Assembly: GCA_019163375.1 (NCBI GenBank)
Contig: JAFLKK010000007.1
Coordinates: 469,813-533,812, forward strand
Length of the DNA: 64,000 nt
Source: Paludibacter sp.
GTDB lineage: Bacteria > Bacteroidota > Bacteroidia > Bacteroidales > Paludibacteraceae
Direction of reading: 5' to 3'
In this document: positions 20,714 through 22,435 of the stretch, in pieces
Layout: each line of letters starts with the position of its first letter
Numbering within the stretch: position 1 is the first letter of the stretch
The notes under the pieces: model-generated
The model's database searches: none
What the model saw: only the letters and a program-made list of their open reading frames with translations
What the model was told of the DNA's origin: nothing
Made by a program: the position numbers and the translations under genes

Positions 20714-20767
20714 TAATCTCCTTTTCTGATTTTAGCACTAAAATGTATTTATTCAACAGCTGTTCTT

Positions 20768-20955
20768 ACATCAGCAGCAATGAAATAATTTGTAGAATTG
20801 CCGTGCATACATCAACGGCAATTAAATAATTTGTAGAATGGCCGTTCATACATCATCGGCAATCAAATAATTTTTAGAATTGCCGTGTATACATCAACAG
20901 CAATTAAATAATTTGTAGAATGGCTTCTCGTATATCATCAGCAATTAAATTCTAT
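20768..20955. repeat. 41-bp tandem repeat array, about 4.6 copies
   Basis: Units begin at 20768, 20809, 20850 and 20891, with a partial fifth unit to ~20955. Each contains acatca-n-gcaat followed by aaataatttgtagaa. Across unit junctions TTGCCGT and ACGGCAA pair as a 7-bp stem with a ~10-nt loop; the pairing is perfect at the first junction and weakens towards the end. It lies between the divergent GH138 and aminotransferase genes. Confidence 0.85.
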
Positions 20956-21030: not shown

Positions 21031-21038
21031 TATCTTTG
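21031..21038 (+). promoter_or_regulatory. Bacteroidota -7 promoter element before leader peptide
   Basis: TATCTTTG matches the TAnnTTTG consensus. Transcription would begin near 21045, giving a ~185-nt leader before the aminotransferase start. No clear -33 TTG is seen. Confidence 0.6.
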
Positions 21039-21062
21039 CAGCGTAAATACAAACACATAGAA

Positions 21063-21134
21063 ATGAAATTGTTCAACCAACTGATTATCGTCATTCTTAT
21101 CGTCATCGGAATCCAACGGATTTGCCGAAGGTAG
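21063..21134 (+). CDS. Branched-chain amino acid-rich leader peptide (attenuator)
   Basis: A 23-codon ORF with ATG at 21063 and TAG at 21132, about 18 nt downstream of the predicted transcription start. Residues 7-17 are LIIVILIVIGI; overall 7 Ile, 2 Val and 3 Leu make up 12 of 23 residues. It is followed by a strong hairpin terminator and then the aminotransferase gene. Codons 20-23 and the stop overlap a segment (21122-21131) that can pair with the terminator's 5' arm. This is the layout of ribosome-mediated attenuation: stalling at Ile codons would free the antiterminator segment, while a ribosome reaching the stop would cover it. It could also be a chance hydrophobic micro-ORF, but composition, position and alternative pairing argue against that. 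Confidence 0.78.
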   Translation: MKLFNQLIIVILIVIGIQRICRR

Positions 21135-21179
21135 GACGTACGTAATCATATACGATATTTTCCAATCCCCTTCAGGCAA
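21122..21179 (+). promoter_or_regulatory. Predicted antiterminator pairing
   Basis: TTGCC (21122-21126) pairs with GGCAA (21175-21179) and GAAGG (21127-21131) with CCTTC (21169-21173), leaving A21174 bulged. This 10-bp structure uses the 5' arm of the terminator and so excludes it. Confidence 0.65.
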
Positions 21180-21204
21180 TGCCTGGAGGGGATTTTTTAT
21201 TTTA
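21164..21204 (+). terminator. Intrinsic terminator (attenuator hairpin) between leader peptide and aminotransferase
   Basis: Arms 21164-21177 and 21181-21194 pair over 14 positions with one G-U, closing a 3-nt loop, and are followed by a T-rich run (TTTTTTATTTT). It sits upstream of the coding gene rather than after one, with only ~25 nt to the start codon, as expected of an attenuator. Confidence 0.88.
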
Positions 21205-21229
21205 TTCAATTCAAAAAAACTTTTCAATT

Positions 21230-22435
21230 ATGAATGCAAGCACTCACATCCCGTTTGCCCGTCGTATGGACGGAGTTCCCCGATCGTTTATCCGCGAAAT
21301 ACTAAAGGTCGCTATTTCGCCCGACATTATTTCCTTTGCAGGTGGTCTGCCCAACAAAGACCTGTTCCCACTCGAAGAACTGCACGAATGCGCCGACCTG
21401 CTTCTGTCCGGTTCCGATCGCAACATTTTGCAATACGCCAACACCGAAGGCTATCTTCCTTTGCGCGAACAAATAGCAGAACGTTATGCACGCAAAGGCA
21501 TGGTGATAAACCCCAACAATATCCTTATCACCAACGGTTCGCAACAGGGATTGGACTTGCTGGGCAAAGTATTTATCAACGAAGGCGATGCCGTGCTGAT
21601 TGAAGAACCGGGATATCTGGGTGCTATACAAGCTTTCTCCATTTTCAAACCGGAATTTTGTACCGTACCACTTACTCCCGACGGCATCGATACAGAAAAA
21701 ATGAAGCAAGTGGTGGAGGCTACTCATCCGATTCTAGCTTATCTGATTCCAAATTTTCAGAACCCATCGGGTATCAGTTATACCGAAGATACCCGCCGGA
21801 AAGTAGCCGATATTTGCCGTGGAAAATCCATGTTTGTAGTAGAAGATGACCCTTACGGCGATATTCGTTTCAGCGGTGAACCGAAACATTCGCTGCATCA
21901 CTACCTTCCGGAACAAACCATCCTGCTCGGAACATTCTCGAAAACCGTGGTACCGGCTTTCCGCATGGGTTGGATAGTGGCTCCCGATGAAGTGATGGAA
22001 CGCCTTGTGATAGCCAAACAAGCCGCCGACCTGCACACCGACTATTTTACACAACGCCTGCTGCATCTGTATCTTGCCAACTATGACATAGATAAACATA
22101 TCGCCAGCATCAGCAAGTTATATGGCGAGCAAGCAGAGGCTATGATAGCTGCCATCGAACGGCATTTCCCAGCCGAAGTACAGTTTACACGCCCCGAAGG
22201 CGGCATGTTTCTGTGGCTCACCCTACCCGAAGGACAAAGCGCCATGCGTCTTTTCGATTTGGCAATACGCGAAAATGTGGCGTTTGTTCCCGGCAATCCG
22301 TTCTACTTCGGAAAAACCGACGTGAATACCTGTCGCCTCAACTTTTCCTGTTCCAATGTTCAGGATATTGAAATTGGCATTCGAAAGTTGGGAAAAGCCA
22401 TTGAGCAGCTACAGCATAAGCACATCACTATATGA
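21230..22435 (+). CDS. PLP-dependent class I/II aminotransferase (LysN/MocR-domain-like)
   Basis: 401 residues from the ATG at 21230; an in-frame codon at 21179 would lie inside the terminator stem, so this start is preferred. Fold-type I aminotransferase: FAGGLPNKDLFP near the N-terminus, NFQNPSG (substrate Asn), VEDDPYG, and FSKTVVPAFRMGW with the PLP Lys. The family includes 2-aminoadipate/leucine-type and aromatic aminotransferases with broad range. The upstream Ile/Val/Leu-rich attenuator suggests expression answers to branched-chain aminoacyl-tRNA supply, hence perhaps branched-chain amino acid transamination (inference). It is an isolated plus-strand housekeeping-type gene lodged between PUL genes. 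Confidence 0.9.
   Translation: MNASTHIPFARRMDGVPRSFIREILKVAISPDIISFAGGLPNKDLFPLEELHECADLLLSGSDRNILQYANTEGYLPLREQIAERYARKGMVINPNNILITNGSQQGLDLLGKVFINEGDAVLIEEPGYLGAIQAFSIFKPEFCTVPLTPDGIDTEKMKQVVEATHPILAYLIPNFQNPSGISYTEDTRRKVADICRGKSMFVVEDDPYGDIRFSGEPKHSLHHYLPEQTILLGTFSKTVVPAFRMGWIVAPDEVMERLVIAKQAADLHTDYFTQRLLHLYLANYDIDKHIASISKLYGEQAEAMIAAIERHFPAEVQFTRPEGGMFLWLTLPEGQSAMRLFDLAIRENVAFVPGNPFYFGKTDVNTCRLNFSCSNVQDIEIGIRKLGKAIEQLQHKHITI

Follow-up and report, generated by a model that had tools for sequence, protein, structure and literature searches.

Ribosome-mediated transcription attenuation is textbook knowledge from the ilvGMEDA, ilvBN and leuABCD leaders of enterobacteria, and the Bacteroid-trp RNA is likewise an attenuator, with a Trp leader. 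Table 1 of PMC2864571 lists the latter (RF01692) as an RNA of Bacteroidetes. Passages retrieved from the open-access literature describe hints that leader peptides attenuate operons for amino acid biosynthesis in Flavobacterium psychrophilum (PMC9723704), short ORFs resembling leader peptides in B. thetaiotaomicron (PMC7366714), a leader ORF or attenuator hairpins before the branched-chain genes ilvBNC of Corynebacterium (PMC11857589, PMC10272879), and an ilvD motif in Veillonella (PMC8632094). Among the matches listed, no passage retrieved told of a Bacteroidota aminotransferase or ilvD gene preceded by an Ile/Val/Leu leader, and these passages yielded little on the control of amino acid synthesis in this phylum.

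The window, by which we mean the whole stretch of 64,000 nucleotides of Paludibacter sp. DNA analysed here, holds at 21031-21235 a compact leader element that we regard, with high confidence, as a ribosome-mediated transcription attenuator sensing charged Ile/Val/Leu tRNA. Its parts and the gene that follows are listed below.

21031-21038, plus strand: putative promoter -7 element TATCTTTG, a match to the Bacteroidota-type motif TAnnTTTG
21063-21134, plus strand: leader-peptide ORF MKLFNQLIIVILIVIGIQRICRR with its stop, 23 codons, kept in 10 of 10 close loci
21081-21107, plus strand: Ile/Val/Leu codons 7-15 of the leader ORF, read from the sequence
21107-21114 (CGGAATCC) with 21118-21127 (GGATTTGCCG), plus strand: protector (1:2) hairpin with a bulge of 2, from the minimum-energy fold, within the ORF
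21122-21131, plus strand: antiterminator 5′ strand (region 2) TTGCCGAAGG, the last codons of the leader ORF
21132-21134, plus strand: leader stop codon, adjoining the antiterminator 5′ strand
21164-21194, plus strand: intrinsic terminator hairpin (3:4), 14 pairs with a loop of 3
21169-21179, plus strand: antiterminator 3′ strand (region 3) CCTTCAGGCAA, inside the terminator 5′ arm and loop
21195-21206, plus strand: T tract TTTTATTTTATT after the terminator, read from the sequence
21230-22435, plus strand: putatively regulated gene for a class I/II PLP aminotransferase, LysN/KAT2-like, 401 aa, assigned from PF00155, PDB matches and the ilv context in relatives

TATCTTTG fits the TAnnTTTG motif of Bacteroidota promoters and is a putative -7 element; it lies only about 24 nt from the leader ORF. 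In that ORF, 12 of the 23 codons specify Ile, Val or Leu, and 10 of these fall within 11 residues (core LIIVILIVIGI). From the start of the ORF to the T tract, the leader measures about 145 nt; regions 1 and 2 both fall within the ORF, and the antiterminator joins 21122-21131 to 21169-21179 by 10 pairs with one bulged A. A sequence-only reading of the window had proposed a promoter, a 23-codon ORF with 12 branched-chain residues, a 14-bp terminator hairpin with T tract and an alternative pairing of 21122-21131 with 21169-21179 next to the stop codon, and each of these was recovered where it had been placed; the 1:2 protector hairpin is a part absent from that earlier list. The 600 bases ahead of the aminotransferase contain a single leader unit. 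At 20750-20945, a short way upstream of the promoter, roughly four tandem copies can be made out by eye; they are imperfect, some 57 bases long each, and have arms resembling TTGCCGT...ACGGCAA.

This layout is consistent with a switch of the following kind. RNA polymerase would start at about 21045, followed by a ribosome on the leader ORF. With charged Ile-, Val- and Leu-tRNAs available, the ribosome would run on to the stop codon at 21132-21134 and cover region 2 (21122-21131); with region 2 covered, region 3 would be free, the 3:4 terminator would form and transcription would end before the gene. When the tRNAs are uncharged, the ribosome would stall in codons 7-15 and cover the upstream strand of the 1:2 hairpin, leaving region 2 free to pair with the newly made region 3, so that the terminator would be blocked and the aminotransferase transcribed. 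Judged from the sequence, such a switch very probably limits production of the enzyme to times of branched-chain amino acid shortage.

We computed the mutually exclusive pairings for 18 loci, with the 3′ terminator arm (region 4) taken as unmade. For the window leader, the model gave region 3 a pairing with the leader of 1.00 with the ribosome stalled at codons 7-15, 0.41 with the ribosome at the stop codon and 0.95 with no ribosome. The no-ribosome value was below 0.5 in 12 of the 17 other loci, as expected for a protected leader, and above 0.9 in the remaining five (L037, L038, L090, L092 and L128), which the window resembles; at 0.95, an untranslated window leader might therefore read through. 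Masking at the stop codon was partial in several loci (L029, 0.86; L037, 0.72; L023, 0.71). The complementarity of the window stop region to the terminator arm was stronger than that of 99% of 200 stop-region shuffles. Of 17 aminotransferase leaders, 15 surpassed 95% of their composition shuffles on this measure; in L040, L089 and L164 the complementarity did not rise above 95% of shuffles.

Such an arrangement is seldom met by chance. The leader has a folding z of -4.43, with none of 200 shuffles equally stable. When 21043-21229 was dinucleotide-shuffled 3000 times, ORFs with at least seven Ile/Val/Leu in 11 residues arose 32 times and a terminator 11 times, and the ORF followed by the terminator never arose. 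In a loose scan of a background of 20 pieces of 20 kb (400 kb) taken at spaced positions from the genome of the window, nine leader-plus-terminator matches were found, with at most 7 Ile/Val/Leu in 11 residues versus 10 in 11 for the window.

Overlapping genome sets were searched with the aminotransferase protein at the levels of genus (48 genomes), family (358), order (393) and phylum (395), together with the families to which three relatives belong (4, 23 and 71 genomes), at cut-offs of 1e-60, 1e-100 and 1e-110. With distant genus-search matches left out, and with L009 and L011, which are one contig, counted once by omission of L011, this gave 28 distinct loci sharing at least about 48% identity. 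Few genomes carry a close copy of the gene (2 of the 48 genus genomes, 8 of the 358 family genomes), and a named-genome scan returned two loci, L009, which is a close orthologue, and a second of 35% identity. All 10 close loci (at least 67% identity: L001, L009 and L023-L030, window included) carry a leader of 21-24 codons and then a similar terminator just before the aminotransferase gene. Their leaders end in Ile-x-x-Ile-x-Arg-Arg or Val-x-x-Ile-x-Arg-Arg, and in eight of them, window included, a TAnnTTTG element stands no more than 75 nt ahead of the leader ATG, L029 and L030 having TTCCTTTG in its place.

Ten distinct leader sequences were aligned (alignment A4) by fitting to the model structure, towards which the alignment therefore leans. 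On A4, the terminator had 98.3% of cells paired, and the window sequence accounts for both of its two-sided changes (two pairs, two cells); controls slid out of register paired in 43-81% of cells, with one two-sided pair at +1. For the antiterminator, 90.8% of cells were paired and two pairs, in five cells, had changed on both sides, with 37-66% pairing and no two-sided change in the slid controls. The number of two-sided pairs in the antiterminator was reached by 134 of 500 shuffles, so the count alone is weak; its two-sided cells and its covariation score, each reached by 5 of 500, are stronger measures, though kinship inflates scores of this kind. The window departs from the common antiterminator register at 3 of its 12 pairs, by two mismatches and a gap, and pairs anew with the bulge displaced. 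The 1:2 hairpin was paired in 95.0% of cells over the 10 sequences with no two-sided change, and slides of +1 and +2 each gave one two-sided pair, the +1 slide with a higher covariation score than the true register.

The sequence-only reading had looked to orthologous leaders for compensatory changes in both alternative helices, and some are present, two pairs each in terminator and antiterminator. It had named the same hairpin without a conserved micro-ORF as the pattern that would speak against it; this pattern is absent, as micro-ORF, antiterminator and terminator are kept in all 10 close orthologues (window included). As to its second adverse pattern, transcript starts downstream of 21065, a promoter-like site is present ahead of the micro-ORF, although L029 and L030 have TTCCTTTG rather than TAnnTTTG.

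A covariance model built from the nine relatives without the window (R1) matched the window at 90.4 bits (E 1.2e-18), the best match in the background pieces being 30.7 bits. In the 358 family genomes, R1 exceeded 40 bits under strict filters only in the eight with the aminotransferase; seven of these eight were in the training set, so that the informative parts of this result are the window and the 350 negatives. Weak R1 matches of 28.7-31.8 bits occur in three family genomes that lack a close aminotransferase copy (G248:C63:22898-23003, G297:C4:919-1035 and G314:C24:10306-10419).

Beyond the close orthologues, leaders without obvious sequence likeness to the window type have the same layout in families f30, f42 and f19. 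A second leader type (L037, L038, L089, L090, L091 and L092; L040 more weakly) consists of an Ile/Val/Leu core followed by a segment that overlaps or adjoins the stop codon (for example, CCATAGGG or CCACAGGG) and can pair to the arm of the terminator (for example, CCCTGTGG); its poorest core, in L092, has 5 Ile/Val/Leu in 11 residues. A leader of its own precedes the gene in 17 of the 28 orthologues. Five more lie in clusters that begin with an Ile/Val/Leu leader and terminator: G361 and G479 have the same-strand order ilvD, aminotransferase, ilvB, ilvN, and in G398, G386 and G792 the aminotransferase comes after a gene that exceeds the TIGR00118 cut-off for the large subunit of biosynthetic-type acetolactate synthase. 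The ilvD terminators heading the G361 and G479 clusters have two mismatches and lie below the detection of the stricter scan. Taken together, 22 of the 28 orthologues stand behind an Ile/Val/Leu leader. In the stretches examined around the other six (L033, L034, L035, L094, L095 and L096), neither a leader nor an ilv neighbour was found, and three of these belong to one genus of another class. A scan of both strands detected no leader at homologues of 33-41% identity (L010 and L012-L022) or at the other aminotransferases of the window genome (L002-L008), a weak negative because the same scan missed the real leaders of L023, L037 and L038.

Two acetolactate synthase-aminotransferase pairs are preceded by two complete Val-rich leader-terminator units in series (L165, 8864-8632, minus strand; L166, 7753-7969), every unit with 9-11 Ile/Val/Leu in 11 residues and with complementarity that beats at least 98% of shuffles. 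An extra upstream terminator lies before L037, L038, L040, L089, L090, L092 and L164, where first units are possible and weaker: for first leaders before the aminotransferase itself, complementarity was found in none of the five tested, a count outside which the first units of L090 and L164 fall. Tandem attenuators are known elsewhere, for example, at mgtCBR of Salmonella in the passages retrieved (PMC3641672).

Leaders of the same kind head ilvD operons. The ilvD operon of the window genome (L081, 6998-7138) starts with a promoter element, MTFQRIYTILVLVVVLLVQNQR and a terminator, and an Ile/Val/Leu leader was found at 29 of 30 ilvD loci (L117-L146, one per genome, window genome included) from several families of the order, 24 by scan and five by eye and then measured. 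The exception, at which no leader was found, is L145, an incomplete match (profile 104-541). Complementarity exceeded 95% of shuffles in 14 of 23 ilvD leaders and in four of the five found by eye, the leader of L118 being present and left out of these statistics. The cores of the 10 close aminotransferase leaders hold 51 Ile, 22 Val and 15 Leu, whereas the 23 ilvD leaders hold 110 Val, 75 Leu and 33 Ile; as many of the leaders are close kin, this Ile dominance against Val/Leu dominance is a lead rather than a test.

The ends of these leaders raise the question of what is being sensed. An invariant Arg-Arg-stop in all 10 close leaders, a choice of AGG versus CGG in two of them that keeps Arg at the loss of a base pair, and six f30 and f42 leaders that end in Pro-stop or carry Pro just ahead of the stop would all fit a leader that senses translation generally, through an inhibitor or a slow ribosome, with Arg-Arg or Pro before the stop as the sensing site. 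However, the Arg and Pro codons sit within the antiterminator strand and are therefore explicable by pairing, and the Ile/Val/Leu enrichment recurs on branched-chain genes in leaders without evident kinship, which makes general sensing very unlikely. Endings of Pro-stop, Pro-Pro-Gln-Gly-stop or similar are seen in L037, L038, L089-L092 and L164-L166; Pro-rich ends might slow the release of the finishing ribosome, and the pairing segment explains them too.

The core LIIVILIVIGI is also as hydrophobic as a membrane helix, and among 315 membrane-like segments of the window genome, three reach 10 Ile/Val/Leu in 11 residues and 4.4% reach nine. The ORF could accordingly encode a short protein of the membrane, either hydrophobic or a type I toxin, that has a terminator to itself and merely happens to stand before the aminotransferase; we judge this reading highly improbable. 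The 110 core residues of the 10 close leaders contain no Phe and no Met, versus 313 Phe and 102 Met in 3465 membrane-like residues; leader and terminator precede the same gene in 10 close loci, strong R1 matches being confined to genomes with that gene; leaders of unlike sequence and the same layout stand before orthologues in other families and before ilvD operons; and a free peptide would need no complementarity between its stop region and the terminator. A terminator controlled by something other than a translating ribosome, as in a riboswitch, T-box or protein-binding leader, would equally account for a terminator with an alternative pairing and is extremely improbable, given that the conserved element is an in-frame ORF, that the roughly 24 nt between promoter element and ORF leave little room for an aptamer, and that an Rfam scan of the whole window gave no family at gathering score, Bacteroid-trp RNA (RF01692) and T-box included. 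A search of plasmid DNA found nothing.

The attenuation reading bears in turn on the role of the enzyme. The aminotransferase scores over the PF00155 cut-off, its closest solved structures are 1x0m, 3aov and 2egy (best PDB match, E 1.3e-93), and by sequence match it belongs to the LysN/KAT2-like class I subgroup; none of the 25 NCBIfam models among those listed reached its cut-off. By structure match the protein resembles LysN, multiple-substrate and kynurenine-aminoadipate aminotransferases (2egy, 1wst, 1x0m and 4gdy), and no PDB entry among the matches listed is named as a branched-chain transaminase. The ilv context comes from the present gene order: ilvD/ilvB/ilvN or acetolactate synthase genes are neighbours of 5 of the 28 orthologues, pointing to branched-chain metabolism. 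The link to Ile, Val and Leu that had been suggested from the leader peptide alone appears strengthened by this order with ilvD, ilvB and ilvN and by the same-kind leaders on ilvD operons. Gene order and leaders make a LysN/KAT2-like branched-chain aminotransferase the probable identity of the enzyme, most likely a second one beside IlvE. Replacement of a missing IlvE is ruled out, as an Aminotran_4 gene of IlvE size (at least 338 aa) was present in all 20 genomes tested, as was ilvC; the LysN/KAT2-like enzyme is therefore not the only possible transaminase.

More tentatively, Bacteroidales may possess a branched-chain regulon built from per-unit leaders without a shared regulator, the units weighing Ile, Val and Leu differently, some operons stacking two leaders (L165 and L166), the LysN/KAT2-like enzyme serving as a dedicated transaminase, and the Arg-Arg or Pro ends perhaps holding the finishing ribosome on the antiterminator; we hold this wider picture to be possible and somewhat doubtful. 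The window leader itself offers a compact, testable switch whose logic appears to be shared by ilvD operons in several families of the order, suggests a likely branched-chain role for an aminotransferase left unnamed by the curated family models listed, and could be used in Bacteroidota to report the charging of Ile/Val/Leu tRNAs.

No account of a leader for this gene was found in the literature searched; the mechanism is classical and had already been suggested in the phylum, and what appears to be new is the leader before this gene, its wide context and the two clear tandem-leader cases in relatives. Bacteroid-trp RNA is also a cis-regulatory RNA candidate of the phylum, but its amino acid and genes differ and it has no match in the window. 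The leaders of F. psychrophilum come from the same phylum, but the passages retrieved name no Ile/Val/Leu case and no such gene (PMC9723704). The ilvBNC leader of Corynebacterium belongs to another phylum and to other genes than the window element, and the likeness is by description only. The enterobacterial ilv and leu attenuators, with which we know of no sequence kinship, differ from the window leader in that the latter is short, has regions 1 and 2 inside the ORF and is followed by a Bacteroidota class I LysN/KAT2-like aminotransferase; the two are alike in their Ile/Val/Leu-rich leader peptide, in their 2:3 and 3:4 pairings, with a candidate 1:2 pairing here, in a leader that a ribosome reads, as it would in the window, and in a terminator set before a branched-chain gene, as the downstream gene here probably is.
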